From Liopterus haemorrhoidalis (Eukaryota > Arthropoda > Insecta > Coleoptera > Dytiscidae): a stretch of DNA of 64,000 bases. The position numbers and the translations under genes were made by a program. The stretch lies in assembly GCA_963971575.1 (NCBI GenBank), contig OZ020624.1, forward strand, positions 17,577,249 to 17,641,248, in the 5' to 3' direction. The notes under the pieces are model-generated. The model had not been told where the DNA came from. It saw nothing but the letters and a program-made list of their open reading frames with translations, and ran no database searches. Of the stretch, positions 14,041 to 44,592 are shown in pieces; position 1 is the stretch's first letter; every line of letters starts with the position of its first letter.

Positions 14041-14091
14041 AAGGTTTAGGTAAGAATTAATGGGGACATTAATTGTTGCAGGACGGCCGAG

Positions 14092-15076: not shown

Positions 15077-16945
15077 TTATCTTCTCACTTCTTTCTTGTC
15101 CTTGGATATTTCGCATTCTATCAGTTATTGCCAGTGTCACATCTTGTCCTTCCGACCTCTTTCTTGCTATTTCCTTAGCTAGTAACCATTATGCTCAAAT
15201 CGTTTCCTTCTTTTTGCTTCCCATTTGGATTGTATCTTCCCATGTATCCCTTTCCTCTCTATTTCTTTCCAGCACTGATAGAGCAAGTTTTTTTTTTGGT
15301 GTTTTATTATCCGCTCTTCGAATTTAATAGCTCTTTTGGTAGCTTCTATCCTAATGTTGTCCAATTTCAATTATTCTAATAAAATATATTCTGGTGTGCA
15401 TTTGTCGAGGCCCAACATCCATTTAATGTATTTATTCTGCACCACCTCTAATTTTTCCTGGTCTTCCCATCCCCATATTTCAGAGGCATACGTCATTATG
15501 CTCTTGACAATGGAGTTGAACATAAGCATCCTTATTTTGATGTCTCCTTTAAATTTTCTCTCACCTATTCCCCACACTTGTGGCAGGGCTAACATTGCTT
15601 TCCTTGAGAGAGTCCGAATATGTTCTTCTGGGCCCCCGCTGCTTTTAAACATGTATCCCAGGTATTTGTATTCTTTCGTTTGTTCTATCTCTTCGTCTCC
15701 CCAATTCCATTTGTTTTGTGTCTGTCTGCCTCCTCCTTTTTTGAACAGCATTATTTTTGACTTATCTGCGTTTAGCTTTAGCTTTTCCTTTTGTAGGAAT
15801 TTCTCAAAACATTTAAGGAGTTTCCTCATTTCCTCTTCGGTTTTAGCTACAATAGCAATACCGTCCGCTTAGGACAGAGAGATAAATTTTGTGTGTCCTA
15901 CTACCAGTCCTCCTGTTTGTTCTCTTTGTAACGCTTCTAAATCTGACATGTATATGGAGAACAGAGTTGGGCTTAACGGGCATCCTTGCCTTAAACCTTG
16001 TTCTGTCTAAAATTCTTCACTATATATTTCTCCATTTCTTATTTGGTTCCTTGTTTCTTTGTAAATGTCTTGTATCCGGTTTCTTATTATGACGTTTAGT
16101 CCCTTTTTATCTAACGTTTTGTAAAGCTCTTTCCGATCTACTGTGTCAAAGGCTGCTTTTAAATCGGCGAAAAACACATATAGTTTGCCTCTTTCCTTTG
16201 CCAGCTTCTACCTACTACATAATTCAGGATATATACGTTGTCAATTGTCCCTCTCCCTTTCCTGAACCCTGCTTGATTGTCTGTTCTTCTACCACTTCTT
16301 CCAACTTCTGTTCTAAAACCATTGCATATATTTTGTACAAAGTGTCCAGAAGAGTAATGCCTCTGTAATTCTTGCATTCATTTTTCATCCCTGATTTGTA
16401 TATGGGTTTTATAATCCCTTTCCTCCATCTATCAGGAAAACTTTCCCCTCTCCATACCTTATTTATAATTTCTGTTATTTTTTTCTTTACATTTTCCGTA
16501 CTGTACAGCCATTCTTCGTTTCCTATCCCATCTTCTCCAGCTGCTTTTTTCTTTTTCAGTTTCTCTATTTGTGCTTGTATTTGCTCTTCCGTTATATCAT
16601 CTTGGTGGCTACCTCCATCATTTTTCGCTACTTCTAGAAATACTTTTTCATTTGTTCCTCTCAGGAGTTGACAGAAATGTCTTTCCCATTCTTCAATCTT
16701 TATATGTTGGGACACATCTACTTTGTTTTTTCTATCTTTATTGATATACTTCCATGCCTCCGTCTCTGTCTTGATATCCTGTATTTCTAATTCTTCTTGT
16801 CTCTTTTTGTTGTTTTTCTTTATCTTTGTATTCTTTCTTTTCTTTTAGATATTCGTTTTTATAGCTTGTACCTATCTTCCATTGTTTTAATGATGTCTTA
16901 ACTGATTTTTTTTCCTACATTCTCCGTCCCACCAGTTATTTCTTC
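15065..16945 (-). pseudogene. Non-LTR retrotransposon reverse transcriptase, inactive (copy B)
   Basis: Orthologue of 1364-3245 with the same domain order. The stop in place of the motif C tyrosine is shared (TAA at 15869-15871), so that lesion predates the duplication. Copy B also has the second aspartate codon changed, giving A-D-G after the stop, and a 2-bp deletion near 16205 that breaks the frame shortly before motif A. It is more degraded than copy A and cannot be functional. Confidence 0.9.
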
Positions 16946-20703: not shown

Positions 20704-21528
20704 AAGAAATGATGTAATTCAAAATACCACTTCTTTAATGGCACCACGCCGGCGACGATGTATATCCACATTCATAAACTATTTTTTGCAAAAAGATAAT
20801 TTCACTGCAAAATCACAGTGAGATGTCAAATGTGTTTTGACACTTACCATCCAGAAAATAAGATATGTATGTCAATTGCGTATGAACACCTACTATCCTG
20901 AAAATAAGATAGTAGAGTAAAGCCCGTAGTACTTGCGCTAGTTACTAGCTCTTTTACTCTACCAATGTAAACCCGGCATAAGACCGAGCATATGGAGTAT
21001 GACGTAAAAAAGTGGGGGAACGGCGGGAAAGAAATGAAAGTTTAAAATTAAATTATAAATAAAATAAAAATAATAGCCTTAGACAAATAACAATAGACAA
21101 ATAATATTGTTATTTGTCTATGGCTACAGAGTACGGCCATTTTATGTATTTGTGACGTTCTGCAAACAGCAAAAAAATTATTAAAATACACCGTTCATAA
21201 AATTAAAATGGAAAAAATTCATTAAATAAATTCATTAATTATTATCTAATTTAAAATTAATATTATTTCTTCAACATTGAAAAAAAAAAAAAAAAAAAAT
21301 CTAGGAAAAACCGAGGTACAATATAATTTTGATTCATGACTGACGTGCACTAATCTGACAGTAAAAATGCCGCCTAAAATTGTAGGGTTAGATTTTATAA
21401 ACATTACGTCACAACAACGGTCAATCCGTGTTCGAGTTGCTGCGCTCCGTTAGTGCTCTATTCATGACGTCACCATCAACTGTTCGCTCAGCGCTCGCTC
21501 TACCCTGTACAACTCGAATGCACCCTTA

Positions 21529-22922
21529 TATTTCAAATATTTGGAGTTCGCCGGTTTAGCGTTAGGAAATTTCCACTGTAAACAATGTATTGTCCACTGC
21601 GATTAAAAGTTTTTTCAGCTCTAAATTCGCTTATTTTTCTCTTCTTTCCACTTATTATGTATATTCTCTTCTTTCTCACCATCTGTCCTATGATTTGCAT
21701 CAGTTTTTTGTCTTTACAGTCACTTTTGCACACGTATTCGTCAATTTTTGGGTACAAAGTATCACTTTTTCATTCTTATTACGCCTTTTATTAATATTTC
21801 ACGTCTTAAAATATTTTGAACGCGGTAAAACCCTTTTTTTAGCGCATTCAACTTGCCTATTTACATCTTAAAACCGTCATAAGTTGGTTTTTTGCGCCTT
21901 TTAGGTTAACTATTTTTGACCTCTTTTTTTTAACCCTTTCAACTACCCTATTTCTCTTTTAAACTTTATGAATCCACATATATTTTGCTGTTAAGTGAAT
22001 AATAAGGGAATTATTTACATTACAAATATTTGAAGTTTTCCCGCCATACTCTACAAATATTTATCGAATCAAAAAAATGTATTTATGTTAGGGATTTACC
22101 CTTTAATTTTAAACAATATTTATTTGATATATTTTGCTGTTAAGTGAATTATAAGGGAGTTATTTATATTTCAAATATTTGGAGTTCGCGCGCTTGGCGT
22201 TAGGAAATTTCCACTGTAAACAATGTATTGTTAGGGTGACCATCCGTCCCGGTTTTCCGGGATTGTCCCGGTGTCCCGAAAAATGTTCTCTGGACGCCCG
22301 ATTGTCCCGGTTTTTGAGGTGAGGACTCTTTTTGCTCTTCACTTTGAATTTGGGGGAGGTGAGGACCTTTTTGTTTTTTTTTGCTCTTTACTTTGAATTT
22401 GGGAGGTGAGGACCTTTTTTTTGCTCTTCACTTTGAATTTAAGAGGTGTGGACCTTTTTTTTTGCTCTTCACTTGGATCTGGGAGGAAACAAAGACCTTC
22501 TTTTTTTTTCCTGTGTCCCGGTTTCCCTTCACTGAAATCTGGTCACCATATGTATTGTGTCTACTGCGATTCAAAGTTTTTTCAGCTCTAAATTCGCTTA
22601 TTGTTCCCTTATTTCCACTTATTATGTCTATTCTTTTCTTTCTCACCATCTGTCCTATGATTTGCACAAGTTTTTTGTCTTTACAGTCACCTTCGCACAC
22701 GTATTCGTCAGTTTTTGAGCACAAAGTATCACTTTTTCATTCTTTTGACGCCTTTTATTATTATTTCACGTCTTAAAATATATTGAACGCTGTAAAACTC
22801 TTTTTTTTAATTCCTTCGACCTACTTATTTACGTCTTTTACGTCATAAGTTGGTTTTTTGCGTCCTTTAGGTTAACTATTTTTGACATCTTTTTACTTAA
22901 CCCTTTTAACTAACCGATTTCT
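21529..22922 (+). repeat. X/Y modules, running past the duplication end
   Basis: X 21529-21990, Y 21990-22150 and X 22150-22922 with a hAT MITE inside. The last X is complete and crosses 22741, the point where its counterpart in copy A is cut off. This defines the right end of the duplicated unit. Confidence 0.8.
22232..22550. mobile_element. hAT-type MITE, CCCGG family (copy B)
   Basis: 319-bp orthologue of 10026-10325 with the same TGTATTGT target duplication. It keeps an extra TTTTCCGGGATTGTCCCGG block near its left end that copy A lacks, and its right end is mutated to GGTCACCATA. Confidence 0.9.
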
Positions 22923-23189: not shown

Positions 23190-23735
23190 TTACCATGTGG
23201 TCGGGCTACCATTTGGTCAGCTAACCATATGGTCAGGTAACCATTTCGTCAGCTAACCATATAGGCATTTAACCATTTAGTCAGCTAACCTCTTGCTTCG
23301 GTAAACATTTCGTCAGCTTATCATATGTTAGGTAACTCAATTTCGTCAGCTAACCATATAATTAGGATACCATTTCATCAACGAAAAATATGAACAACTA
23401 ACCATTTACTCAGACAATTCTTTCGTTAGCTAACTATATTGGTCAGTTAACATTTTGTCTGCTAACCACATGGTCAGGTAAACATTTAGTTAGCTAACCA
23501 TATGGTCAGGTAATCATTTGGTCAGCTAACCATTTGGTCATGTAACAATTTCGACAGCTGACCATATAGTCAGAAAACCATTTGGTCTGCTAACCATATG
23601 TTTGGGTAACCATTTAGTCAGCTAACCGTATGGTCAGTTAACAATTTTTCCAACTAATCATATGGTCAGGTAACCATTTTGTTAGCTGACCATATGGTCA
23701 GGTAATATTTTTGTAAGGTAACCATATAATAAGAC
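23190..23735 (+). repeat. 16-bp minisatellite, array 3
   Basis: About 34 units of the GGTCAG-type 16-bp repeat, more degenerate than arrays 1 and 2. The X/Y repeat orientation reverses immediately after it at about 23740, and its mirror counterpart is within 42365-44592. Confidence 0.85.
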
Positions 23736-24690: not shown

Positions 24691-24915
24691 TTCCAACCGA
24701 GTCACAGACCCTACTTTCTCCACGACCACCAGAAAGAAAAAAAAATTAACAAATAATTATTTTTAACAAACATTTTATCTTAACAAATAATTTATATTAC
24801 ATAACAAATTAATCAATTAATTAAACTATTTTTTTATTTATTATTTGTTTAATTTTAATTTAATTTGCCGCACATCGGCCCCTATTTTAGGTTAGGAAGT
24901 TATGTTGCATTAATT
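24691..24915. other. AT-rich spacer left of the satellite insertion
   Basis: No gene seen. It contains TTTCTCCACGACCAC at about 24717, which recurs inverted at about 42071-42085 on the far side of the insertion. This could be the terminal repeat of a roughly 0.4-kb MITE that holds the whole 17-kb insertion. CATTAATT at 24908-24915 abuts the MITE and matches CATTTATT at 41856-41863 in 7 of 8 bases. Confidence 0.45.
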
Positions 24916-25183
24916 TAGGGTGACGATCCGTCCCGGTTTTCCGGGATTGTCTCGGTTTTATGTACATTGTCCCGGTGTCCCGAAATATGTTTTCGGGATG
25001 GTCGATTGTCCCGGTTTTTACATAATTATGCATTTGTAAGAAAAGAAGTATAACAACTAGTCAATGTGAGAGGTGAGTTTTTTTTTGCTCTTCACTTGTA
25101 TGTGGGAGGTGAAGACCTTTTTTTTGCTCTTCACTTGGATCTGGGAAGTGAGGACTTTCTTTTTTTTCCTGTGTCCCGGTTTC

Positions 25184-25338
25184 TATTGGACTTACAACCA
25201 AGTAACTTATATATAACACCATGGATACCAAGTAAAAAATAATATAATATGTAAAATATGTTATGTCATGTGTTACAATGTCTGTATCATATTAGTGCCT
25301 AAATATATTACTGCTATACTGCTGTTTATATTCCTATA
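25184..25338 (+). mobile_element. copia 5' LTR
   Basis: 155 bp, followed immediately by the tRNA-Met-type primer-binding site. Copies differ by a 4-5 bp indel and a few substitutions, so the copia is not freshly inserted. The LTR has TA...TA ends in place of TG...CA. Confidence 0.88.
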
Positions 25339-28061
25339 GGTTATGGGCCTCTCAGATTTTTCAGGTTCTAATATGAATATTAAAATAGAACATTTGAAAG
25401 AAATCAATTTTGACACATGTAAAATACAAGTGCAAGCATTATTGACGAAAAATGATGCATGGAATTATTGAAATGGAAAGAAAAAGAAACCAGTTGAAAT
25501 ACCGGGAAATGCTGCACAAGAATTATTAGTAGAAAAATGGGATGAGGCAGACGAGAAAGCAAGGTCAGATCTAATCTTATGTATTAGTCCTTCACAACTT
25601 CGTCAATTTAAAGACTGTACTACCTGTCATGAATTATGGCTTAAATTGCATGATGTGTACCAGTCAAAAGGTCCCGCTAGAAAAGCTTATTTATTAAAAC
25701 AGCTCTTATTTACGTAGATGGCAGAAGGAGAGGATGTGAAAGAGCATATAAATAAATTTATGGAAATTGTAGATAAGCTTCACAACATGGCTTTAGAAAT
25801 AAATGAAGAATTATTAGTTATTTTATTATTATATAGTCTCACAGAAAATTTTGAAAATTTCAGATGTGCTATAGAATCTCGAGATAAATTACTGAAACTT
25901 GAAAATTTGAAAATTAAAATAGTAGAGGAGTTTAAAGCTCGACAGAACAAAATTAATAATAATTCAGAATCATTGTACGTCCATAGAAGACAAGAAAGAA
26001 GAAGCTTTACAGAAAATAGAGATAAAAAGCAACAGACGTTTATATTTAAATGTCATTTATGTGGTAAAGCAGGACATAAGAAATCAGAATGCAGAAGTAA
26101 AAAACATTTTAGCAAACATAGATATGGACAACCTGAATCTCATTATGTTCATGAAGAGACTGCTAAACAGGGACATGATTTTGGTTATTTTAATTATGGT
26201 GAATTAAGCTATCGACAAGACGATAAAAGTAAATGGTGTTTGGATAGTGGATGTACATCGCACATGACAGGTAACAGAGAAAAGATTAAAAATAATTTAC
26301 GAATAGAGAAAAGTATAGTCAAATTAGCAACCAATACATCCACAAATATTGAAGGCAGAGGGAACAATAAGTTAACATTAGATAATGGAAAATTTGTATC
26401 AGATATATTATTGAAAGATGTTTTATATGTCCCTGATCTTCGAATGAATTTAATGTCAGTATCCAAAATTGTCAATGATGGTTATACTGTTGAATTTTAC
26501 AAATTTGGTGCAAGAGTTAGGAACAAAAGAGGAAAAGTCATCTTTCTAGCAAGAAAAATAAATGATTTATATATTGTATCGGAAAAGTTAGAAAGGAGTA
26601 ATTTTTTGACAGAAGGGAAAACTCTTCAAGATTGGCATGAAAAGTTTGGTCATTTAAATGAGAAAACTTTGTTAGATATGGCTAAACGCGAATTAGCAAT
26701 AGGTTTAAATATTGGAAATAAACAAAAATTAAATACGTGTGAGGTATGCATGAAAGGAAAAATGAGCCAAAAACCTTTTGCATCATCGACAACAGAAAGA
26801 ACTAGATACCCTCTGGAAATTGTTTATAGTGACTTATGTGGTCCTATGAGAACCAATTCTATTGGTGGTAGTCGTTATTTTATAACATTTATAGAACATA
26901 AAACTCGATGGTGTGTAGTAAAATTTTTAAAAAACAAAAATGAAGCACTCGCAGCTTTCAAACTTTTCAAAATGGAAGTAGAAAATCTGCAAGGAAGAAA
27001 AATCAAATATTTCCAGACGGACAATGGGACGGAATACTGTAATCTTAAATTTGATGATTTTTTAAAAGAAAGTGGAATAAAAAGAAGGTTATCAGTCACT
27101 TATACACCAGAAGAAATGGGTGTTGCAGACAGAAAAAATCGAACATTAGTCGAAATGGCAAGATGTTTGCTAATCCAATCTGGTCTATCAGAAAATTTTT
27201 GGGCGGAAGCAATAGCTACCGCAAATTACATAAGGAACAGATGTTCATCAAAGTCGATAAATGGTCAAATACCTTTTTCTTTATGGTATGACAAACGTCC
27301 AATTGTGAGCTACTTTAGAAAATTTGGTAGCAAAGCATTTGCATTAAATAAAACTCCAGGAAGAGGAAAATTTCATGAAAAAGCTGAAGAATGCATTTTC
27401 ATTGGATATTTTGAAACGTCCAAAGCGTATAGATTATGGTCTATAAAAGATCGTAAGGTTATAATACGAAGAGACGTAAGATTCATAAATGCACATACGG
27501 TGAATCAACATACGACTAAAGTTAGGAATTTTATTGAAAAACAAGAAAAATCGTCAAAGGAGAACAAATAAAAAGAATGTGAAATTTTGATTATTTCCCC
27601 AAACAAGAAAAATAAACAAGATAATGAAGTAATTGAGCAAAGATTAAGTCAAGATCGAGAAGAGCTAATAGAAACAAGTTCAGTTAATAATGAAAATGAA
27701 TCCGATAACGAAAATAATATTAATAATGAACAAGGAACAGAACTCATTAAAGGTCGAGGAAGACCAAGTTTGATGAAAACCGGAAGAAGGGGAAGACCAA
27801 AGAAACAATACCACATGATCGAAAAACAAACTAATAGTGTGCAAAAAGTACAAAATGAAAGTTCCGAAGAAGTGGCTACAGTAGCAGAAATTTCTCCAGA
27901 AGAAGCGTTAAATGGAAGAAATGCCAAAGAATGGATGGAAGCAATATGTGACGAAATTACTTCAATGATCAAAAATGAAACTTGGAAAATAGTTCAATTG
28001 CCAGATGATAGAAAAGAAATTGGGTGCAGATTAGTTTTAACTAATAAGTATAATTTAGATG

Positions 28062-28230
28062 TGTCATGGTGTTAATAATGGCAACATTGTAAATATTGGT
28101 TGTCATATTTGACAACCAGGTCCATGACAACAGTTGTGTTTTGTTATATAAGAAATGTCATTCTTAAATAAATAATTAATAAATCATAAATATATAAAAG
28201 TGTATAATTACGATAACAAAGGTTATTACA
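28062..28230 (+). mobile_element. 5' LTR of the compact gypsy element
   Basis: 169 bp, TG...CA ends, containing a short AATAAATAAT stretch that could serve polyadenylation. It must drive transcription of the coding frame starting at 28252; a TATATAAG box-like motif lies at about 28145. Confidence 0.9.
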
Positions 28231-28251
28231 TGATGCCGAAACCAGTATAAA

Positions 28252-30447
28252 ATGACAAGAAACGACGAAAGCATGATTGGGTTAAAACCGCCAAAACCAT
28301 TGCCAATAAGCAATGAAACAGACATGTCGCAAGCATGGAAAACCTGGGTTCAACAGTATCAGTGGTACGAAACAGCAACAAATTTAAAGAAAAAAGAACA
28401 AGCAGTACAGGTAGCAACTTTTATGACCATAATAGGACCTGATGCAATAATTATTTACAATACATTTAACCTTAAAGAAACCGATCTAAATAATGTAGAA
28501 AAAATAAAGAAAAAGTTCGAAGAATATTTTGTCCCTAAAATTAATGTAACCTACGAGCGCTACATATTTAATAAGACAGAACAGAACATCAATGAAACAT
28601 TTGATGATTTTCTTACGTCATTACGAAATAAATGTAAAAATTGCTCATTTGGAAAACTTGAAGACAGTTTAATATGTGACAGAATTGTAGTAGGCATAAA
28701 TAACGACAAAATAAGGGAACGACTTCTTGAAGAGGATAAATTAACTTTGGAGCTAGCAATAAATATCTGCAGAGCAAATGAATTAGCAAGAAAACAGTTG
28801 AAAGCTATGAAAGACAACCAAGAAGAACATCAGGTAAATACATTACAAAACAAATCGAACACTAGTTACTACAAAATCAAAAAAGAAAAAACTAAGCCAA
28901 AAGAAACATTCAAGTGTAGTAGGTGTGGAACTACACATGAAAGAAAAGCTTGTCCAGCATTTAACCAAAATTGTAATAAGTGTAAGAAAAAAGGACATTT
29001 CTCCAAGTGCTGCAGAACAAAACAAGTCAATTTTATTCACGGTAGCACTGATTTAGAAGAAGATCAAGTTCTATATGTTTCTGCAATAGATAATGAAGAA
29101 ACAAAAACAGATGACTGGTTTGAAACATTGTGGATTTCACCAAATACAAAGGTCAAATTTAAACTTGATTCTGGTGCGCAATGCAACGTCATCCCAGAAA
29201 AATTAGCGCAGAAAGCAAAACTTGTGGTAAACCCGTCAAAAACAAAGAACTTGTTGTCATTTTCGAATCACAAAATACAAGTGAAAGGCGAATGCTCAAC
29301 GAAACTTAATTATAAAAACAAAAAAGAAAATATTAAATTTTTGATAGTTGGCGATGATCTACAACCAGTTTTAGGAAAAGGCACATGTGTACAGTTGGGA
29401 ATTTTAAAACGTATCGAAACAATAAATAAAGAAATATTCAGTGGTATTGGTTGCGTAAAGGGATACGTGTATGATATTGACCTAGTGGAAAATCCTAAAC
29501 TACCGATTTATCCAGCTAGAAGAATACCATATCCAAAGCAAGAACCTTTAATTGAACAAGAAGTTCCAGATCGTCCATGGTCTCAAGTAGCATCAGACTT
29601 ATTTAAATTAAACAAAAATTGCTATAGTGTGATAGCTGACAGTTATTCAGGATATTTTGACTTTAAATTGTTGAAAAACATAACCAGTGCAGCTGTCATT
29701 ACTGCACTAAAGAATTGGTTTGCAGTGCATGGTATCCCGGATGTTCTATTGACAGATAATGGAACACAATACACTTCAGAAGAATTTAAGTTGTTCAAAC
29801 AAACATGGCAATTCAAGCACAGACTTTCAAGCCCGGAGTTTCCAAGATCGAACGGATTAGCAGAAAGATATGTGCAAGAAGCCAAAAATTTACTGAAGAA
29901 ATGTCTAGAAGAAAAGTCGGATATCTATCTAGCACTACTACATCACAGAAATACACCAAGAGGCAATATCGGATCACCAGTTCAAAGGTTAATGAACCGA
30001 AGAACAAAAACGCTGTTACCATTACAGAAGAAACTACTGAAGCCTAAAATATTTAAAGAAGTCAGAGAAACATTAATTAAATATAAAAAGACTGAAAAAT
30101 TTTATAGTGATAAAAAGACAAAATCAGCTCCTGAATTTAGAGAAAATCAGAACATATTATATAGAAACGAAAACAAAAAATGGCTACCAGCGAAAATAAT
30201 AAAAAAAGCAGAAGAACCAAGATCATTTATTATTCAAACGCCAGAAGGAAATATATATCGTAGAAATTCATGGTTTTTGAGAAATAATAATTCATGGTTT
30301 TTGAGAAATAATAATGAAGAAAAAAGTTCTGAGGAAACATCACAGTATTCACCACCTGACACTACAAAAACGAGAGAAGAGAAGAGAAAAGAAGAACTAG
30401 TAACTCAGCCCGTAGTGAGGAGGTCTAGTAGAAAAATAACATCATAG
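28252..30447 (+). CDS. Gag-protease-integrase fusion protein without reverse transcriptase (731 aa)
   Basis: Uninterrupted 731-codon frame beginning 21 bp after the 5' LTR. Residues 1-215 are Gag of the nematode K02A2.6-like gypsy type (WVQQYQWYETATNLKKK). Residues 220-257 hold two zinc knuckles, CSRCGTTHERKAC and CNKCKKKGHFSKCC. An aspartic protease follows with LDSGAQCNVIP (Asp306). At about residue 425 the frame passes from the start of RT (ENPKLPIYPARRIP) directly into the integrase core (PWSQVASDLF). RT, RNase H and the integrase HHCC finger are therefore missing. Integrase Asp449, Asp502 and Glu538 are present with correct D-x35-E spacing. Near the C-terminus a 27-bp tandem duplication repeats NSWFLRNN. 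The protein could in principle assemble particles and integrate DNA but not copy RNA. Confidence 0.92.
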   Translation: MTRNDESMIGLKPPKPLPISNETDMSQAWKTWVQQYQWYETATNLKKKEQAVQVATFMTIIGPDAIIIYNTFNLKETDLNNVEKIKKKFEEYFVPKINVTYERYIFNKTEQNINETFDDFLTSLRNKCKNCSFGKLEDSLICDRIVVGINNDKIRERLLEEDKLTLELAINICRANELARKQLKAMKDNQEEHQVNTLQNKSNTSYYKIKKEKTKPKETFKCSRCGTTHERKACPAFNQNCNKCKKKGHFSKCCRTKQVNFIHGSTDLEEDQVLYVSAIDNEETKTDDWFETLWISPNTKVKFKLDSGAQCNVIPEKLAQKAKLVVNPSKTKNLLSFSNHKIQVKGECSTKLNYKNKKENIKFLIVGDDLQPVLGKGTCVQLGILKRIETINKEIFSGIGCVKGYVYDIDLVENPKLPIYPARRIPYPKQEPLIEQEVPDRPWSQVASDLFKLNKNCYSVIADSYSGYFDFKLLKNITSAAVITALKNWFAVHGIPDVLLTDNGTQYTSEEFKLFKQTWQFKHRLSSPEFPRSNGLAERYVQEAKNLLKKCLEEKSDIYLALLHHRNTPRGNIGSPVQRLMNRRTKTLLPLQKKLLKPKIFKEVRETLIKYKKTEKFYSDKKTKSAPEFRENQNILYRNENKKWLPAKIIKKAEEPRSFIIQTPEGNIYRRNSWFLRNNNSWFLRNNNEEKSSEETSQYSPPDTTKTREEKRKEELVTQPVVRRSSRKITS

Positions 30448-30530
30448 ATTAAAAATTACTTGTAATCATAAAATAATTGTTATTGTAAAAATATTGTAAA
30501 ACGTTATCTTTCTTTTAGGAAAAAGAGGGA

Positions 30531-30699
30531 TGTCATGGTGTTAACAATGGCAACATTGTAAATATTGGTTGTCATATTTGACAACCAGGTCCATGACAAC
30601 AGTTGTGTTTTGTTATATAAGAAATGTCATTCTTAAATAAATAATTAATAAATCATAAATATATAAAAGTGTATAATTACGATAACAAAGGTTATTACA
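30531..30699 (+). mobile_element. 3' LTR of the compact gypsy element
   Basis: 169 bp, one difference from the 5' LTR, directly preceded by a purine-rich tract. The AGATG duplication follows, after which the interrupted copia frame resumes. Confidence 0.9.
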
Positions 30700-32211
30700 A
30701 GATGGATCTCTAGAAAAACGAAAAGCAAGATTAGTTGCAAAAGGTTTTACACAGATCTATGGAATTGATTTTACAGAAACTTATGCACCAGTGGTCACAT
30801 TAAAAGCAATTCGTTTGGTGATGGCACTAGCGGCACAATACAATTTATCAGTACACCAATTTGATATTAAAACGGCGTACTTAAATGGCGATCTTAATGA
30901 AGAAATATATATGAAGATACCTGATATTTTAGAAAATGCATTAAAAGAAATTATCAAGAAAACCAATATTGATAAAAAAATTAAAGTAACTGAAGAAGAA
31001 TGGTTAAAGGAAATCCAGGAAAACGGTAAGAAATCATGTTTACTTAAAAAAGCGATTTATGGTCTTCGACAATCAGGTCGTCAATGGCATAAGAAATTAG
31101 ATGAAAAATTAAAAGAAATGAATTTAATACCTCTTAAAACCGAACCTTGTATTTACTTTAAACAAACGAAAAATGGAGAAGAAGGAATTATTGTCAGTAT
31201 TTTCGTCGATGATATAATTGTAGCTTCCAACAATATAACAAAAATTGAACACTTTAAAAAGCAATTGAGTGAAAGTTTTGAAGTAAAAGACTTAGGTAAG
31301 ATAAAAAAATGTTTGGGCATTGAATTTTCTCGTTCCGAAAAAGGGGAAGTAATAATGACACAGAAGCATTATATAAAAGAGCTTCTTGAGCTTATCGGTA
31401 TGAAAAATTCAAAATCAGTCAAGACGCCAATGGAACCAAATATTAAATTTGATAAACCTGCAACAAAATCAGAAGAAATGAAAAGATATCCTTATCAAAA
31501 TTTAATTGGAAGTTTATTATATATAGCTATTGGAACACGACCAGACATTTCATAAGCAGTCAATTATTTAAGTCAATTCAACACGAACTATGCAAAGGAA
31601 CACTGGATAGCGGCGAAAACAATATTACGATATTTGAATGGTACATTGGATTATTCTTTGAAGTACAAAAAATCAAATCAAAAGATGGTCGGGTACACAG
31701 ATGCCGATTGGGGTGCTTGTACCGTGGATAGAAGATCCTATACAGGACACATTTTTACAATGGCAGGAGCTCCAGTAACTTGGGAAGCAAAGAAGCAGAG
31801 AACGGTAGCTTTGTCAAGTACGGAAGCTGAATATATGGCACTATCGGAGGCAACAAAAGAAGCCATATACTTAAAAAATATTTTGGAAGAATTACATATA
31901 AAAGAAGGAAAATTAAAAATATATTGTGATAATATTGGCGCTGGAATTTTGGCGAAAAATTCGGTATACCATTCAAGAACAAAACATATAGATATCAGGC
32001 ATCATTTTGTCCGAGAAGCCGTTGAAAATGAAAAAATTGAAATTGAATATATTTCAACAAATGAAATGATGGCCGATATTTTAACAAAAGGTTTGACATT
32101 TGCGAAACACAGGTTATGTACTGACAAGATGAATTTGACATCTTTGACATCTTAAATTGTCAAACTAATAAATATTTTTTTGTTTATAAGATATCCTTGA
32201 TTGAGGGGAAG

Positions 32212-32361
32212 TATTGGACTTACAACCAAGTAACTTATATATAACACCATGGATACCAAGTAAAAAATAATATAATATGTAAAATATGTTATGTGTTATA
32301 ATGTCTGTATCATATTAGTGCCTAAATATATTACTGCTATACTGCTGTTTATATTCCTATA
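32212..32361 (+). mobile_element. copia 3' LTR
   Basis: 150 bp after the purine tract GAGGGGAAG, followed by GTTTC and the remaining 25 bp of the interrupted MITE. Confidence 0.88.
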
Positions 32362-32391
32362 GTTTCCCTTCACTGAAATCTGGTCACCCTA

Positions 32392-35300
32392 TCTATTCTG
32401 AAAAATTATTCTATTTGAATAAGACATCCTGAAACTATGAAATTAGGCATACCTATACAGAAGGTATCGCTGAATCCAATGGCGTGCTGAAACAAGTTCG
32501 AAAGCCGAAAATCGTTGATAAATTTCGCGATATGTAACCGGCAGTACACGGTAGTAAAATAATATATACCTCTCTTCTTAAAAATTATTCTATTTGAATA
32601 AGACATCCTAAATCTATGAAATTAGGCATAACTATACAGAAAGTATCGCTGAATCCAATGGCGTGCTGAAAAAAGTTCGAAAGCCGAAAATCGTTGATAA
32701 ATTTCGCGATATGTAACCGGCAGTACACGGTAGTAAAATAATATATACCTCTATTCTGCAAAATTATTCAATTTGAATAAGACATCCTGAAACTATGAAA
32801 TTAGGCATAACTATACAGAACGTATCGCTGAATCCAATGGCGTGCTGAAAAAAGTACGAAAGCCGAAAATCGTTTATAAATTTCGCGATATGTAACCGGC
32901 AGTACACGGTAGTAAAATAATATATACCTCTTTTCTGAAAAATTATTCTATTTGAATAAGACATCCTGAAACTATGAAATTAGGCATAACTATACAGAAA
33001 GTATCGCTGAATCCAATGGCGTGCTGAAAAAAGTTCGAAAGCCGAAAATCGTTGATTAATTTCGCGATATGTAACCGGTAGTACACGGTAGTAAAATAAT
33101 ATATACCTCTTTTCTGAAAAATTATTCTATTTGAATAAGACATCCTGAAACTATGAAATAAGGCATAACTATACAGAAAGTATCGCTGAATCTAACGGCG
33201 TGCTGAAAAAAGTTCGAAAGCCGAAAATCGTTGATTAATTTCGCGATATGTAACCGGCAGTACACGGTAGTAAAATAATATATACCTCTTTTCTGAAAAA
33301 TTATTCTATTTGAATAAGACATCCTGAAACTATGAAATAAGGCATAACTATACAGAAAGTATCGCTGAATCCAATGGCGTGCTGAAAAAAGTTCGAAAGC
33401 CGAAAATCGTTGATTAATTTCGCGATATGTAACCGGCAGTACACGGTAGTAAAATAATATATACCTCTTTTCTGAAAAATTATTCTATTTGAATAAGACA
33501 TCCTGAAACTATGAAATAAGGCATAACTATACAGAAAGTATCGCTGAATCCAATGGCGTGCTGAAAAAAGTTCGAAAGCCGAAAATCGTTGATTAATTTC
33601 GCGATATGTAACCGGCAGTACACGGTAGTAAAATAATATATACCTCTTTTCTGAAAAATTATTCTATTTGAATAAGACATCCTGAAACTATGAAATAAGG
33701 CATAACTATACAGAAAGTATCGTTGAATCCAACGGCGTGCTGAAAAAAGTTCGAAAGCCGAAAATCGTTGATAAATTTCGCGATATGTAACCGGCAGTAC
33801 ACGGTAGTAAAATAATATATACCGCTATTCTGAAAAATTATTCTATTTGATTTAAACATCCTGAATCCAATGGCGTGCTGAAAAAAGTTCGGAATTGATT
33901 CGTTAAGCAGAAAATCGTTGATAAATTTCGCGATAAGTAACCGGCAGTACACGGTAGTAAAATAATATATACCTCTTTTCTGAAAAATTCTATTTGAATA
34001 AGACATCCTGAAACTATGAAATTAGGTATAACTATACAGAAAGTATCGCTGAATCCAATGGCGTGCTGAAAAAAGTTCGAAAGCCGAAAATCGTTGATAA
34101 ATTTCGCGATATGTAACCGGCAGTACACGGTAGTAAAATAATATATACCTCTTTTCTGAAAAATTATTCTGTTTGAATAAGACATCCTGAAACTATGAAA
34201 TTAGGCATACCTATACAGAAGGTATCGCTGAATCCAATGGCGTGCTGAAAAAAGTTCGAAAGCCGAAAATCGTTGATAAATTTCGCGATATGTAACCGGC
34301 AGTACACGGTAGTAAAATAATATATACCTCTCTTCTTAAAAATTATTCTATTTGAATAAGACATCCTAAATCTATGAAATTAGGCATAACTATACAGAAA
34401 GTATCGCTGAATCCAATGGCGTGCTGAAAAAAGTTCGAAAGCCGAAAATCGTTGATAAATTTCGCGATATGTAACCGGCAGTACACGGTAGTAAAATAAT
34501 ATATACCTCTATTCTGCAAAATTATTCAATTTGAATAAGACATCCTGAAACTATGAAATTAGGCATAACTATACAGAACGTATCGCTGAATCCAATGGCG
34601 TGCTGAAAAAAGTACGAAAGCCGAAAATCGTTTATAAATTTCGCGATATGTAACCGGCAGTACACGGTAGTAAAATAATATATACCTCTTTTCTGAAAAA
34701 TTATTCTATTTGAATAAGACATCCTGAAACTATGAAATTAGGCATAACTATACAGAAAGTATCGCTGAATCCAATGGCGTGCTGAAAAAAGTTCGAAAGC
34801 CGAAAATCGTTGATTAATTTCGCGATATGTAACCGGTAGTACACGGTAGTAAAATAATATATACCTCTTTTCTGAAAAATTATTCTATTTGAATAAGACA
34901 TCCTGAAACTATGAAATAAGGCATAACTATACAGAAAGTATCGCTGAATCCAACGGCGTGCTGAAAAAAGTTCGAAAGCCGAAAATCGTTGATTAATTTC
35001 GCGATATGTAACCGGCAGTACACGGTAGTAAAATAATATATACCGCTATTCTGAAAAATTATTCTATTTGATTTAAACATCCTGAATCCAATGGCGTGCT
35101 GAAAAAAGTTCGGAATTGATTCGTTAAGCAGAAAATCGTTGATAAATTTCGCGATAAGTAACCGGCAGTACACGGTAGTAAAATAATATATACCTCTTTT
35201 CTGAAAAATTCTATTTGAATAAGACATCCTGAAACTATGAAATTAGGCATAACTATACAGAAAGTATCGCTGAATCCAATGGCGTGCTGAAAAAAGTTCG

Positions 35301-38300
35301 AAAGCCGAAAATCGTTGATAAATTTCGCGATATGTAACCGGCAGTACACGGTAGTAAAATAATATATACCTCTTTTCTGAAAAATTATTCTGTTTGAATA
35401 AGACATCCTGAAACTATGAAATTAGGTATAACTATACAGAAAGTATCGCTGAATCCAATGGCGTGCTGAAAAAAGTTCGAAAGCCGAAAATCGTTGATTA
35501 ATTTCGCGATATGTAACCGGTAGTACACGGTAGTAAAATAATATATACCTCTTTTCTGAAAAATTATTCTATTTGAATAAGACATCCTGAAACTATGAAA
35601 TAAGGCATAACTATACAGAAAGTATCGCTGAATCCAACGGCGTGCTGAAAAAAGTTCGAAAGCCGAAAATCGTTGATTAATTTCGCGATATGTAACCGGC
35701 AGTACACGGTAGTAAAATAATATATACCTCTTTTCTGAAAAATTATTCTATTTGAATAAGACATTCTGAAACTATGAAATAAGGCATAACTATACAGAAA
35801 GTATCGCTGAATCCAATGGCGTGCTGAAAAAAGTTCGAAAGCCGAAAATCGTTGATTAATTTCGCGATATGTAACCGGCAGTACACGGTAGTAAAATAAT
35901 ATATACCGCTATTCTGAAAAATTATTCTATTTGATTTAAACATCCTGAATCCAATGGCGTGCTGAAAAAAGTTCGGAATTGATTCGTTAAGCAGAAAATC
36001 GTTGATAAATTTCGCGATAAGTAACCGGCAGTACACGGTAGTAAAATAATATATACCTCTTTTCTGAAAAATTCTATTTGAATAAGACACCCTGAAACTA
36101 TGAAATTAGGCATAACTATACAGAAAGTATCGCTGAATCCAATGGCGTGCTGAAAAAAGTTCGAAAGCCGAAAATCGTTGATAAATTTCGCGATATGTAA
36201 CCGGCAGTACACGGTAGTAAAATAATATATACCTCTTTTCTGAAAAATTATTCTGTTTGAATAAGACATCCTGAAACTATGAAATTAGGCATAACTATAC
36301 AGAAAGTATCGCTGAATCCAATGGCGTGCTGAAAAAAGTTCGAAAGCCGAAAATCGTTGATAAATTTCGCGATAAGTAACCGGCAGTACACGGTAGTAAA
36401 ATAATATATACCTCTTTTCTGAAATATTCTATTTGAATAAGACATCCTGAAACTATGAAATTAGGCATAACTATACAGAAAGTATCGCTGAATCCAATGG
36501 CGTGCTGAAAAAAGTTCAAAAGCCGAAAATCGTTGAAAAATTTCGCGATATGTAACCGGCAGTACACGGTAGTAAAATAATATATACCTCTTTTCTGAAA
36601 AATTATTCTATTTGAATAAGACATCCTGAAACTATGAAATTAGGCATACCTATACAGAAAGTATCGCTGAATCCAATGGCGTGCTGAAAAAAGTTCGAAA
36701 GCCAAAAATCGTTGGTAAATTTCGCGATATGTAACCGGCAGTACACGGTAGTAAAATAATATATACCTCTCTTCTTAAAAATTATTATATTTGAATAAGA
36801 CATCCTAAATCTATGAAATTAGGCATAACTATACAGAAAGTATCGCTGAATCCAATGGCGTGCTGAAAAAAGTTCGAAAGCCGAAAATCGTTGATAAATT
36901 TCGCGATATGTAACCGGCAGTACACGGTAGTAAAATAATATATACCTCTATTCTGCAAAATTATTCAATTTGAATAAGACATCCTGAAACTATGAAATTA
37001 GGCATAACTATACAGAACGTATCGCTGAATCCAATGGCGTGCTGAAAAAAGTACGAAAGCCGAAAATCGTTTATAAATTTCGCGATATGTAACCGGCAGT
37101 ACACGGTAGTAAAATAATATATACCTCTTTTCTGAAAAATTATTCTATTTGAATAAGACATCCTGAAACTATGAAATTAGGCATAACTATACAGAAAGTA
37201 TCGCTGAATCCAATGGCGTGCTGAAAAAAGTTCGAAAGCCGAAAATCGTTGATTAATTTCGCGATATGTAACCGGCAGTACACGGTAGTAAAATAATATA
37301 TACCTCTTTTCTGAAAAATTATTCTATTTGAATAAGACATCCTGAAACTATGAAATAAGGCATAACTATACAGAAAGTATCGCTGAATCCAACGGCGTGC
37401 TGAAAAAAGTTCGAAAGCCGAAAATCGTTGATAAATTTCGCGATATGTAACCGGCAGTACACGGTAGTAAAATAATATATACCTCTTTTCTGAAAAATTA
37501 TTCTTTTTGAATAAGACATCCTGAAACTATGAAATAAGGCATAACTATACAGAAAGTATCGCTGAATCCAATGGCGTGCTGAAAAAAGTACGAAAGCCGA
37601 AAATCGTTTATAAATTTCGCGATATGTAACCGGCAGTACACGGTAGTAAAATAATATATACCTCTTTTCTGAAAAATTATTCTATTTGAATAAGACATCC
37701 TGAAACTATGAAATTAGGCATAACTATATAGAAAGTATCGCTGAATCCAACGGCGTGCTGAAAAAAGTTCGAAAGCCGAAAATCGTTAGTAAATTTGGCG
37801 ATATGTACCCGACAGTACACGGTAGTAAAATAACATATACCGCTATTCTGAAAAATTATTCTATTTGATTTAAACATCCTGAATCCAATGGAGTGCTGAA
37901 AAAAGTTCGGAAGTGATTCGTTAAGCAGAAAATCGTTGATAAATTTCGCGATAAGTAACCGGCAGTACACGGTAGTAAAATAATATATACCTCTTTTCTG
38001 AAAAATTATTCTATTTGAATAAGACATCCTGAAACTATGAAATTAGGCATAACTATACAGAAAGTATCGCTGAATCCAATGGCGTGCTGAAAAAAGTTCG
38101 AAAGCCGAAAATCGTTGATAAATTTCGCGATATGTAACCGGCCGTACACGGTAGTAAAATAATAAATACCTCTTTTCTGAAAAATTATTCTATTTGAATA
38201 AGACATCCTGAAACTATGAAATTAGGCATAACTATACAGAAAGTATCGCTGAATCCAATGGAGTGCTGAAAAAAGTTCGAAAGCCGAAAATCGTTGATAA

Positions 38301-41300
38301 ATTTCGCGATATGTAACCGGCCGTACACGGTAGTAAAATAATAAATACCTCTTTTCTGAAAAATTATTCTATTTGAATAAGACATCCTGAAACTATGAAA
38401 TTAGGCATAACTATACAGAAAGTATCGCTGAATCCAATGGAGTGCTGAAAAAAGTTGGGAAGTGATTCGTTAAGCAGAAAATGGTTGATAAATTTCGCGA
38501 TAAGTAACCGGCAGTACACGGTAGTAAAATAATATATACCTCTATTCTGAAAAATTATTCTATTTGAATAAGACATCCTGAAACTATGAAATTAGGCATA
38601 CCTATACAGAAAGTATCGCTGAATCCAATGGCGTGCTGAAAAAAGTTGGGAAGTGATTCGTTAAGCAGAAAATGGTTGATAAATTTCGCGATAAGTAACC
38701 GGCAGTACACGGTAGTAAAATAATATATACCTCTTTTCTGAAAAATTATTCTATTTGAATAAGACATCCTGAAACTATGAAATTATGCATACCTATACAG
38801 AAAGTATCGCTGAATCCAATGGCGTGCTGAAAAAAGTTCGAAAGCCAAAAATCGTTGGTAAATTTCGCGATATGTAACCGGCAGTACACGGTAGTAAAAT
38901 AATATATACCTCTATTCTGAAAAATTATTCTATTTGAATAAGACATCCTGAAACTATGAAATTAGGCATACCTATACAGAAGGTATCGCTGAATCCAATG
39001 GCGTGCTGAAAAAAGTTCGAAAGCCGAAAATCGTTGATAAATTTCGCGATATGTAACCGGCAGTACACGGTAGTAAAATAATATATACCTCTCTTCTTAA
39101 AAATTATTATATTTGAATAAGACATCCTAAATCTATGAAATTAGGCATAACTATACAGAAAGTATCGCTGAATCCAATGGCGTGCTGAAAAAAGTTCGAA
39201 AGCCGAAAATCGTTGATAAATTTCGCGATATGTAACCGGCAGTACACGGTAGTAAAATAATATATACCTCTATTCTGCAAAATTATTCAATTTGAATAAG
39301 ACATCCTGAAACTATGAAATTAGGCATAACTATACAGAACGTATCGCTGAATCCAATGGCGTGCTGAAAAAAGTACGAAAGCCGAAAATCGTTTATAAAT
39401 TTCGCGATATGTAACCGGCAGTACACGGTAGTAAAATAATATATACCTCTTTTCTGAAAAATTATTCTATTTGAATAAGACATCCTGAAACTATGAAATT
39501 AGGCATAACTATACAGAAAGTATCGCTGAATCCAATGGCGTGCTGAAAAAAGTTCGAAAGCCGAAAATCGTTGATTAATTTCGCGATATGTAACCGGCAG
39601 TACACGGTAGTAAAATAATATATACCTCTTTTCTGAAAAATTATTCTATTTGAATAAGACATCCTGAAACTATGAAATAAGGCATAACTATACAGAAAGT
39701 ATCGCTGAATCCAACGGCGTGCTGAAAAAAGTTCGAAAGCCGAAAATCGTTGATAAATTTCGCGATATGTAACCGGCAGTACACGGTAGTAAAATAATAT
39801 ATACCTCTTTTCTGAAAAATTATTCTTTTTGAATAAGACATCCTGAAACTATGAAATAAGGCATAACTATACAGAAAGTATCGCTGAATCCAATGGCGTG
39901 CTGAAAAAAGTACGAAAGCCGAAAATCGTTTATAAATTTCGCGATATGTAACCGGCAGTACACGGTAGTAAAATAATATATACCTCTTTTCTGAAAAATT
40001 ATTCTATTTGAATAAGACATCCTGAAACTATGAAATTAGGCATAACTATATAGAAAGTATCGCTGAATCCAACGGCGTGCTGAAAAAAGTTCGAAAGCCG
40101 AAAATCGTTAGTAAATTTGGCGATATGTACCCGACAGTACACGGTAGTAAAATAACATATACCGCTATTCTGAAAAATTATTCTATTTGATTTAAACATC
40201 CTGAATCCAATGGAGTGCTGAAAAAAGTTCGGAAGTGATTCGTTAAGCAGAAAATCGTTGATAAATTTCGCGATAAGTAACCGGCAGTACACGGTAGTAA
40301 AATAATATATACCTCTTTTCTGAAAAATTATTCTATTTGAATAAGACATCCTGAAACTATGAAATTAGGCATAACTATACAGAAAGTATCGCTGAATCCA
40401 ATGGCGTGCTGAAAAAAGTTCGAAAGCCGAAAATCGTTGATAAATTTCGCGATATGTAACCGGCCGTACACGGTAGTAAAATAATAAATACCTCTTTTCT
40501 GAAAAATTATTCTATTTGAATAAGACATCCTGAAACTATGAAATTAGGCATAACTATACAGAAAGTATCGCTGAATCCAATGGAGTGCTGAAAAAAGTTC
40601 GAAAGCCGAAAATCGTTGATAAATTTCGCGATATGTAACCGGCCGTACACGGTAGTAAAATAATAAATACCTCTTTTCTGAAAAATTATTCTATTTGAAT
40701 AAGACATCCTGAAACTATGAAATTAGGCATAACTATACAGAAAGTATCGCTGAATCCAATGGAGTGCTGAAAAAAGTTCGAAAGCCGAAAATCGTTGATA
40801 AATTTCGCGATATGTAACCGGCCGTACACGGTAGTAAAATAATAAATACCTCTTTTCTGAAAAATTATTCTATTTGAATAAGACATCCTGAATCTATGAA
40901 ATTAGGCATACCTATACAGAAAGTATCGCTGAATCCAATGGCGTGCTGAAAAAACTTCGAAAGCCGAAAATAGTTGATAAATTTCGCGATATGTAACCGG
41001 CCGTACACGGTAGTAAAATAATAAATACCTCTTTTCTGAAAAATTATTCTATTTGAATAAGACATCCTGAAACTATGAAATTAGGCATAACTATACAGAA
41101 AGTATCGCTGAATCCAATGGAGTGCTGAAAAAAGTTCGAAAGCCGAAAATCGTTGATAAATTTCGCGATATGTAACCGGCCGTACACGGTAGTAAAATAA
41201 TAAATACCTCTTTTCTGAAAAATTATTCTATTTGAATAAGACATCCTGAATCTATGAAATTAGGCATACCTATACAGAAAGTATCGCTGAATCCAATGGC

Positions 41301-41586
41301 GTGCTGAAAAAACTTCGAAAGCCGAAAATAGTTGATAAATTTCGCGATATGTAACCGGCCGTACACGGTAGTAAAATAATATATACCTCTATTCTGAAAA
41401 ATTATTCTATTTGAATAAAACATCCTGAAACTATGAAATTAGGCATACCTGTACAGAAAGTATCGCTGAATCCAATGGCGTGCTGAATAAAGTTCGCAAG
41501 TGATTCGTTTGACCGAAAATCGTTGATAAATTTCGCGATATGTAACCGGCAGTACACGGTAGTAAAATAATATATACTTCTATTCT
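32392..41586. repeat. 179-bp satellite array with higher-order structure
   Basis: About 51 head-to-tail monomers of 179 bp, marked by TTTCGCGATATGTAACCGGC, AGTACACGGTAGTAAAATAA and ATCGCTGAATCCAATGGCG. Variants include short monomers of about 147 bp that lack the GAAATTAGGCATAACTATAC part and carry GATTCGTTAAGCAG, and 191-bp monomers (38364-38746). A block of 13 monomers repeats with an offset of 2322 bp (36603 to 38925). Shorter blocks repeat at 1758 bp (32764 to 34522), 1221 bp and 863 bp. The last monomer at the right end is the most diverged. Each monomer shows a minus-strand open stretch of about 66 codons, but 179 is not a multiple of three, so no long repeat protein results. Confidence 0.96.
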
Positions 41587-41855
41587 TAGATTGACCATCC
41601 GTCCCGGTTTTATGTACATTGTCCCGGTGTCCCGAAAAATGTTTTCGGGACGGTCGATTGTCCCGGTTTTGACATAATTATGCATTTTTAAGAAAAGAAA
41701 TATTACAACTAGTTAATGTGAGAGATGAGATATTTTTTTTTTCTCTTCATTTGGATGTGGGAGGTTAGGACCTTTTTTTGCTCTTCACTTGGATCTGGGA
41801 GGTGAGGACCTTCTTTTTTTTCCTGTGTCCCGGTTGCCCATCACTGGTCACCCTA
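41587..41855. mobile_element. hAT-type MITE, CCCGG family (right flank of satellite)
   Basis: 269 bp, starting TAGATTGACCA (a variant of TAGGGTGACCA) and ending TGGTCACCCTA. Left flank TCTATTCT (41579-41586) equals the right flank of the other MITE (32392-32399), and right flank CATTTATT (41856-41863) nearly equals its left flank CATTAATT. Same subfamily as 24916-32391. Confidence 0.9.
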
Positions 41856-42090
41856 CATTTATTTAATATAAGCGTTGCATATATCTTAATGTAACCCTAC
41901 AAAAACAAAAGACAAGAAGCTTGGAATAGTAATTCCATAACAAGTGATGGAATGCAATACACGCGAAATGCATAAGAAAATAAGTGCATTAAAATAACAT
42001 TCCAACTCTTGTGTTAGAATATTAACTCTCTGTAGTCAAAATTGGGTTTAGAATTGGTAAATTCTATAGTGGTCGTGGAGAAAAAACTGT
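41856..42090. other. Spacer right of the satellite insertion
   Basis: About 230 bp with no coding sequence or recognisable repeat, apart from GTGGTCGTGGAGAAA at about 42071, the inverted partner of 24717. With the MITE-satellite-MITE block removed, it would join 24691-24907. Confidence 0.4.
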
Positions 42091-42330: not shown

Positions 42331-42364
42331 ATACTAGTATCAATTTTATTGATTTAAAAATTAC

Positions 42365-44592
42365 CTGACAATGTGGTTAGCTGACCAAATTACTTGACCA
42401 TATGGTGGAGCTCAGCAAATGGTAACATGACCAATATGGTAAGCTGACGAAATGGTTACCTGACCATATGGTTAGCTGGCAAAATGCTTGCCTGACCATA
42501 TGGTCAGCTGACGAAATGGTTACCTGAACATATGGTAAGATGACCAATATGGTTAGCTGGCAAAATGGTTACCTGACCATATGGTCAGCTGACGAAATGG
42601 TTACCTGAACATATGGTAAGCTGACCAAATGGTAACATGACCAATATGGTTAGCTGACGAAATGGTTACCTGGTCTTATGGTTAGCTGGCCAAATTGTTA
42701 ATTGACCATATGGTAACCTGACCATATGGTTATTTATTTATTTATTTATTTATTTTACATCGGCCTATTTCTGCAACGAGGGTAACCGCCGAAGCCAGGG
42801 AGCGAGCTCCTACACCTGGATGAGCAATGAATGATTGTGAAATGAAAGTAATGTAAACATATTATTCTCACCCGAATAATATCATAAATCGAACTACCAA
42901 CCACACAATCCAGACTGTTTTCCACGAGCCCAAACTGCTGCGATTTAATGCGCTCGGCCACTCAGTCGGCTGACCATATGGTTTGCTGACCAAAATGTTA
43001 CCTGATCATATGGTCAGCCGAACAAATGGTTACCTAACCATATGGTTAGCTGACCAAATGGTTACTTGACCATATGTTTAACTAACCAAATGGTTACCTG
43101 ACTGTCGTTGGCAGACCAAATGGTTTGCTGAGCAAGCATAGGTGAAGCTGACCAAATGGTTACAAGACTTACATGATTACCTTAAAAAATTGACCTGACC
43201 ATATGGTCATCTGACAAAATGGTTACCTAACCATATGGTTAGCCGGAAAAAATAATAACTGACCATATGGTTAGCTGACGAAATAGTTAACTGACCATAT
43301 GGTTAGCTGACGAAATGGTTACCTGACCATATGGTTAGTTGACTAAATGGTTACTTGACCATGTGGTTAGCAGACCAAATGGTAAACCGACCATATAGTT
43401 AGCTGAACAAATGGTTGCCCGACCATATGGTTAGCTGACGCATTTGTTACTTGACCATATGGTTAGCCGACCAAATGTTTTGCTGGGCATATTAAGCTGA
43501 CCAACTGGTTACATTACCAATGTGGTTATTTTACGAAAATATTACCTGACCGTATAGTCAGCTGCTGAAATAGTTACCTGACCATAGGGTCAACTGACGA
43601 AATGGTTACGTGACCATATGGTTAGCTGACCAAATGATTCCCTGACCATATGGTTAGCTAACTTAATGTTTACCTAACCATGTGGTTGGCAGACAAAATA
43701 GTTTGCTGAGCATATGGTTAGCTGAATAAATGGTTAGTTTTTCATATTTTTCGTTGATGAAATGGTATCCTAACTATATGGTTAGCTGACGAAATTGAGT
43801 TACCTAACATATGATAAGCTGACGAAATGTTTACCGAAGCATGTGGTAAGCTTACTAAATGGTTACCTGCCCATATGGTTAGCTGACGAAATGGTTACAT
43901 GACCATATGGTTAGCTGACCATATGGTTAGCTTACGAAAGAATTACCTGACCATGTAATTAGCATACCAAATGGTTATCTGACCATATGGTTATCTGACC
44001 AAATGTATTACTGACGTAATGGTCAGCTGACCAAATGGATACCAATATCCATTATGACCCATGACCAATATGTTTTGCTAACGAAAGAATTACCTGACCA
44101 TGTGGTGTGCTGACCAAATAGTTTGCTGAGCATATGGTTAGCTGAGCATATGGTTAGCTGACGAAATGGTTGCCTAACCATATGGATAGCTGGTCAAATG
44201 GATACATGACCAGTATGGTTAGCTTACGCAAGAATTACCTGACCATGTGGTTAGCTGATCAATTGGTTACCCGACCATATAGTCAGCTGAATAAATTGTT
44301 ACTTGGCCATATTTTTAGCTGACGGAACTTTTATTTTTAGCTTTCATAACCTAGGGTTAGCTGACGAAATGGAGTTACCTGAACATATGATAAGCTGACG
44401 AAATGCTTCCCTGTCCATTTGGTTTGCTGACAAAATGGTTACTTGACCATATGGTTAGCTGACCAAATGGATACATGGCAAATAATGGTTAGCTTACGTT
44501 AGAATTACCTGACCATGTGGTTAGCTGACCAAATGGTTACCTTACCATATAGTTAACTGACCAAATGGTAGCCCGACCATATGGTAACAGTT
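42365..44592 (-). repeat. 16-bp minisatellite, array 4 (reverse orientation)
   Basis: The longest minisatellite array: about 125 units after subtracting the SINE, reading GGTTAGCTGACCAAAT / GGTTACCTGACCATAT on the plus strand, which is the reverse complement of arrays 1-3. Part of it (43085-43250) is a recognisable reverse complement of 1190-1300, including the non-canonical stretch with CTGAGCAAGC and ACTTACATGATTACC. The array was therefore copied by inversion or duplication and was not generated independently. Confidence 0.9.
42731..42968 (-). mobile_element. tRNA-derived SINE inside the minisatellite
   Basis: Minus-strand SINE of about 238 bp. The head has GAGTGGCCGAGCGC (A-box-like) and GGTAGTTCGATTTA (B-box-like). 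The body has ATTATTCGGGTGAGAATAAT and GGAGCTCGCTCCCTGG, and it ends in an (AAAT)n tail (plus strand TATTTATTTATT). Minisatellite units resume on both sides. Related pieces are at about 52836-52925 and 54022-54200. Confidence 0.8.

Follow-up and report, generated by a model that had tools for sequence, protein, structure and literature searches.

A tandem array lying between two miniature inverted-repeat transposable elements (MITEs) is present in a 64,000-nucleotide stretch of the genome of the beetle Liopterus haemorrhoidalis, contig OZ020624.1 (hereafter the window; C13:17577249-17641248 in the 1.02-Gb, 91-contig assembly GCA_963971575.1). We consider it probable that a composite non-autonomous hAT element with the structure MITE-array-MITE, moved by its outermost ends, is dispersed in the genome and that this region is one of its copies. 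The same architecture recurs at other loci of the single assembly examined. The 8-mers outside the MITEs match each other at individual loci and differ between loci, and the junction phase, one MITE allele and a variant of the first monomer are shared.

The order along the window is CATTAATT, MITE 1, tandem array, MITE 2 and CATTTATT, with both MITEs in the same orientation and all features given on the forward strand. The outer left flank CATTAATT (24908-24915) and the outer right flank CATTTATT (41856-41863) match at 7 of 8 positions and would be the two copies of the target duplication of the composite. MITE 1, the left one, spans 24916-32391 in total and amounts to about 293 bp without a copia retrotransposon located inside it; its left part (24916-25183) is of the long-left-end form and begins with TAGGGTGAC, and its right part (32362-32391) terminates in GGTCACCCTA. 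The array occupies 32392-41586 (9,195 bp) and has TCTATTCT at both its start and its end, as the inner flanks of MITE 1 (32392-32399) and of MITE 2 (41579-41586). MITE 2, the right one (41587-41855), is of the short-left-end form, with its left end changed to TAGATTGAC. A previous sequence-only reading had given the same positions for the two MITEs, for the array and for the 8-bp flanks, and had noted the identity of the inner flanks and the similarity of the outer ones. The array has 48 monomer starts, spaced mostly by 179 bp, with some spacings of 150, 191, 326 and 355 bp. At the phase of the MITE junctions TCTATTCT was found at 8 of the 48 starts (the first included) and TCTTTTCT at 31; thus TCTATTCT is indeed an internal array motif, as that reading claimed, but a minority form rather than the usual one.

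Both MITEs belong to a family of high copy number, about 270-300 bp in length and with the inverted-repeat ends typical of MITEs. A genome search with MITE 2 as the query gave 2790 first-look candidates; 40 were scored and the DNA of all 40 was examined, so that the solo copies, being selected by likeness to MITE 2, form a biased sample. Both ends were assigned at 37 of the 40 places (L004, L025 and L052 were unclear to the script). Four of these 37 are array-edge copies, and the other 33 make up the non-composite set. An 8-bp target duplication is usual in the family: the flanks match at 7 or 8 of 8 positions in 27 of the 33 non-composite copies and do not in six, at least one of which (L020) had its right end misassigned by the script. 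The short terminal inverted repeats, TAGGGTGACC ... GGTCACCCTA, are presumably hAT-like. With its 8-bp duplications and terminal inverted repeats the family is assigned here, on the sequence features, to putative non-autonomous hAT elements. Long and short left-end forms were both found as solo copies, the long one in 9 of 32.

In the window itself, solo copies with full 8-bp duplications are located at 10026-10325 and 22232-22550 (both TGTATTGT) and at 62574-63028 (AATAAGCG). Each of the first two lies in one copy of a duplication about 1.25 kb long (9285-10518 and 21526-22743, 91% identical). Because they share both their target duplication and this setting, they look like a single insertion copied along with its surroundings. 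The only hAT transposase sequence seen in the window was a fragment with a C-terminal dimerisation region (Pfam PF05699) at 53012-53707, and no ends of the MITE family, with up to one mismatch allowed, were found beside it.

The MITE-array junction of the window recurs at 10 other loci, which makes 11 loci in all, three of them with both junctions. At least five of the 40 places found by MITE likeness adjoin an array at TCTATTCT in the same phase and orientation, namely MITE 2 of the window, L007, L009, L025 and L050. The copies L007, L009 and L025 were recognised by comparing the first 30 MITE loci with the monomer, and L050 by its flank, with later confirmation. A junction pattern running from MITE to array, with up to 3 mismatches, gave 7 matches, of which 6 were true: the window, C7b (34.56 Mb), C7a (29.16 Mb), C10b (24.80 Mb), C11b (26.15 Mb; its MITE is interrupted) and C7c (21.75 Mb; about 80 bp of array remains). 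The opposite pattern, from array to MITE, gave 8 true junctions among 11 matches (window, C5, C7b, C10a, C10b, C11a, C11c and C13b), and the reversed-pattern control gave none in either case. The match at C4:4615121 was rejected as an ordinary MITE with its own duplication CGAATATA, and that at C7:26242188 as having, by eye, no array adjoining it; the matches at C9:2842829 and C14:1284007 were left out of the counts, and two C11c array blocks about 14 kb apart were counted as one locus. The junction loci are spread over five numbered contigs (C5, C7, C10, C11 and C13).

Since these patterns prescribe phase and orientation, and other junction types would escape them, the constancy of the phase rests on other evidence, that is, on the five copies found by likeness and on a phase-free search with a conserved array 32-mer (up to one mismatch), which gave 110 matches in 1.02 Gb and none in the control. 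Among the 100 matches listed and assigned to loci, 11 loci are represented (C5, C7a, C7b, C8, C10a, C10c, C10b, C11a, C11c, C13b and the window), and a MITE junction is present at nine of them; C8 and C10c had no junction-pattern match, and the DNA there was not read. The 32-mer search would miss diverged arrays, C11b being one such, and very long arrays may be absent from the assembly. The repeat is not abundant in the assembly and, judging from these counts, would not qualify there as a classical satellite, which forms abundant long arrays in the genome.

The arrays read outside the window are about 0.7-4 kb long, several of them truncated, with spacings mostly of 150 and 191 bp. The far end was not found within about 38 kb at C7a, nor at C10a, where the array stops mid-monomer, nor at C11c, where it is interrupted. 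The C11c array (L069) is broken by a sequence beginning CAGTCGATTCCGCTTAATTGGGAC after ATATA, which may resemble a Tigger-like element.

The outer 8-mers could be read at both edges at four of the 11 loci, and at all four they match at 7 or 8 of 8 positions, with a word that differs from locus to locus. Besides the window, these are C7b, with ATTAATGT and ACTAATGT in array orientation (7/8; inner words TCTAATCT and TCTATTCT), C10b, with TCATTAGA on both sides (8/8), and C5, with CTTATCAC and CTTATGAC (7/8). The C7b array is interrupted by an apparent solo long terminal repeat (LTR) and by an apparent long LTR element. Within the right MITE of C10b (C10:24793737-24794591, L063/L062) is an insert of about 0.5 kb whose ends, AGCGTGTTCTAC/GTAGAACACGCT, are inverted, and the far outer flank of this locus was sought once the near one was known. 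At C5 (C5:29012223-29013288, L042) the array starts at TCTATTCT straight after CTTATCAC, the left MITE missing exactly at the junction, and CTTATGAC adjoins the right MITE on its outer side. Such a structure would result if the left MITE had been excised; a one-ended insertion is a possible alternative. As a background, pairs of 8-mers taken from different loci of the same MITE family, which allows for a shared target preference, match at 7 or 8 of 8 in 12 of 1332 cases (0.9%), and therefore the agreement of the outer flanks exceeds chance. The 10 readable outer 8-mers beside edge MITEs (two each at the window, C7b and C10b, one each at C7a, C5, C10a and C11c) are all non-array words and match the inner 8-mer of the same MITE, by eye, at no more than 5 of 8 positions. 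At all three loci with both MITEs the duplication is found outside the pair and none belongs to a single copy, which is the expectation for a composite transposon.

Several features of the left edge are shared between loci. At one site, chosen post hoc after inspection of the first seven or so MITEs, all five left MITEs carry T (window, C7a, C7b, C7c and C10b), and six of eight right MITEs carry C (window, C5, C10a, C10b, C11c and C13b), as do 30 of the 32 solo copies in the sample biased toward MITE 2; the other two solo copies have T. A 25-mer with the T allele has eight exact matches in the genome, of which three are left MITEs of composites, one is a solo copy (L015) and four were not read. 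The long left end is present in three of the four left MITEs in which this end is readable. In a tree of 43 MITEs the left MITEs of the window, C7a, C7c and C10b cluster together, with weak support. The first monomer after the left edge contains CAGAAGGTATC at five of seven left array edges (window, C7a, C7b, C5 and C10b), and elsewhere in the arrays read this variant has two occurrences in the window and one in C7b. Two further variants are confined to first monomers among the arrays read, one of them in C7a and C10b and the other in C7a, C7b and C10b. With exceptions given below, the left allele and the first-monomer variant held in common suggest that the composites descend from one ancestor.

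Composite transposition is the simplest account of these data. One insertion per locus suffices for it, and it explains the outer duplications, the inner words and the shared left-edge features. A hAT transposase, presumably supplied in trans, would pair the outermost inverted-repeat ends, contributed by the left MITE on its left side and by the right MITE on its right side. The whole block would then move, producing an 8-bp duplication outside and retaining the old array word TCTATTCT inside. The window array would have grown locally, in its 179-bp form, after arrival, and the left MITE of C5 would have been lost through its own excision. The first composite may have arisen through two MITE insertions into one array at an identical, preferred 8-mer, or through recombination of a repeat circle carrying one MITE with a resident MITE; either route could account for the identical inner words and would leave the same descendants. 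Composite hAT movement was one of two models in the sequence-only reading and gains support from the locus-specific outer duplications and from the shared left-MITE and first-monomer variants.

Its other model was circle integration. In a recurrent form, circles of array DNA bearing one MITE from a single insertion at TCTATTCT would recombine with a different resident MITE at each locus, and the outer duplication would belong to that resident. This would account in one step both for TCTATTCT at the two inner flanks and for the matching outer flanks, and the long and short MITE forms are both available as solo copies. The left parts of the left MITEs would then derive from unrelated residents, yet they carry T in 5 of 5 cases against 2 of 32 sampled solo copies, and the long form in three of four readable cases against 9 of 32. 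Nor was a MITE flanked by array DNA on both sides, the supposed source, met among the 10 of 14 junction MITEs with a readable outer flank. Circle integration fits less well because the left-MITE haplotypes do not look like those of random residents, and we regard its repetition at every locus as improbable; it is not needed there, though a circle could have founded the first composite. An alignment of the two window MITEs, which the sequence-only reading had suggested as a way to look for a crossover patch, gave 92% identity over 236 columns. An initial argument that neither MITE is a crossover product was weakened and then dropped: the right end of MITE 1 is common in the family, and the odd right end of MITE 2, which has a small deletion, is absent from all other right ends compared in the family sample.

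Separate entry of MITEs at the two edges of pre-existing arrays, drawn there by a preferred target word, appears more improbable still. TCTAT-like words do occur among the solo duplications (TCTATGAC, TCTATAGC) and make the array word a plausible target, but each MITE should then have its own duplication. No such duplication was present at any of the 10 edge MITEs that could be read on both sides, and the outer flanks match across the array at all four loci. That the window structure is an assembly error or a chance arrangement at this locus only is hardly credible: arrays are hard to assemble and a single assembly is involved, but similar junctions occur at 11 loci on five numbered contigs with locus-specific outer words.

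A number of observations speak against the composite interpretation. Only one of the four outer duplications is perfect, and seven of the 11 loci, some of them truncated or interrupted, yielded no test of the outer match. The right MITEs of C7b and C11a carry the left-type T, which needs conversion, exchange or separate founding; the left-right allele difference has a Fisher p of 0.02 at a site selected post hoc, and the solo sample is biased, having been selected by likeness to MITE 2. The left MITE of C7b has a short left end, and the left-MITE cluster of the tree also takes in the right MITE of C7b and solo copy L015. The CAGAAGGTATC variant is absent from the left edges of C7c, which has the common base, and of C11b, where the segment is missing. 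Taken whole, the first monomer of the window most resembles further monomers of the same array; its two best matches, at array offsets 6519 and 1758, have the CAGAAGGTATC variant too. Neither a partner transposase nor an empty site nor an excision event was observed in the one assembly.

Composite (macro)transposons are formed by two nearby copies of one element, as in bacterial insertion sequence (IS) elements and Ac/Ds pairs. In these, as proposed here, two copies bracket and move the intervening DNA and the target duplication lies outside only; unlike them, the element proposed here has MITEs at its ends and carries a tandem array of locus-dependent length. MITEs bearing tandem repeats are described in Xenopus (Xstir and miDNA4; PMC12628747, PMC9659126) and in clams (pearl and DTC84; PMC5139131), where likewise a non-autonomous DNA transposon disperses a linked internal tandem repeat of variable copy number. 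In those descriptions one MITE encloses the repeats, whereas here a whole MITE of about 270-300 bp stands at each end, and the two are in direct orientation and belong to a hAT-type family with many solo copies. CgHINE of Crassostrea gigas, a Helentron with satellite-like arrays (PMC7492417, PMC9659126), is similar in that the array is the cargo of a dispersed non-autonomous element, and an account from clams and oysters presents arrays as parts of Helitrons with junctions common to the copies. Helitron-type transposition is reported to proceed without a target duplication (PMC9659126), in contrast to the 8-bp duplication outside the pair here. The foldback element Tetris of Drosophila virilis is a further DNA transposon linked to an emerging satellite (PMC4079207, PMC9659126). 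Its repeat is reported to derive from the terminal repeats of the element; here the origin of the monomer from the MITE was rejected, a monomer query having matched no MITE in the loci searched at E 1e-5.

The sequence-only reading had taken dispersal of satellite DNA by MITEs for an undescribed route; this goes too far, as MITEs and Helitrons/Helentrons bearing tandem repeats are already described in the sources cited, although the build found here is unusual. A narrow search of the open-access literature found no array bracketed by two whole hAT MITEs in direct orientation, which is weak evidence of novelty.

How tandem arrays arrive at new chromosomal sites is a standing question. With vehicle, cargo and target duplications readable at several loci, array transposition becomes datable, comparable and testable, and later array growth can be separated from arrival. 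A broader idea, which we advance tentatively and doubt slightly more than we believe, is that paired hAT MITEs, through composite transposition, seed short arrays at new sites and that some of these expand and become homogenised where they lie, giving rise to locus-specific satellites. The 9.2-kb window array, mostly of the 179-bp form, would have developed from a seed of this kind, and the end MITEs could leave later, as perhaps at C5, which would fix the array in place.

The retrotransposon inside MITE 1 is a copia element with LTRs (25184-32361, forward strand) with matches to the domains Retrotran_gag_2, rve and RVT_2. Its LTRs are located at 25184-25338 (155 bp) and 32212-32361 (150 bp), and its 5-bp target duplication GTTTC at 25179-25183 and 32362-32366, the second copy forming the initial 5 bp of the right part of MITE 1. 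Between its integrase and reverse-transcriptase frames an open frame at 28234-30447 matches an integrase and, weakly, an aspartyl protease, which may mean that a fragment of another retroelement is nested at this point.

Other repeats of the window include 16/32-bp tandem repeats of the CTGACCATATGGTTAG type at 686-1368, 14530-15066, 23191-23727 and 42361-44585, which have one orientation to the left of the composite and the opposite one to its right. The segments 3-1216 and 13847-15079 are a direct duplication (95% identical) followed by more direct matches of high identity; repetition in the left half of the window thus extends over a larger block.

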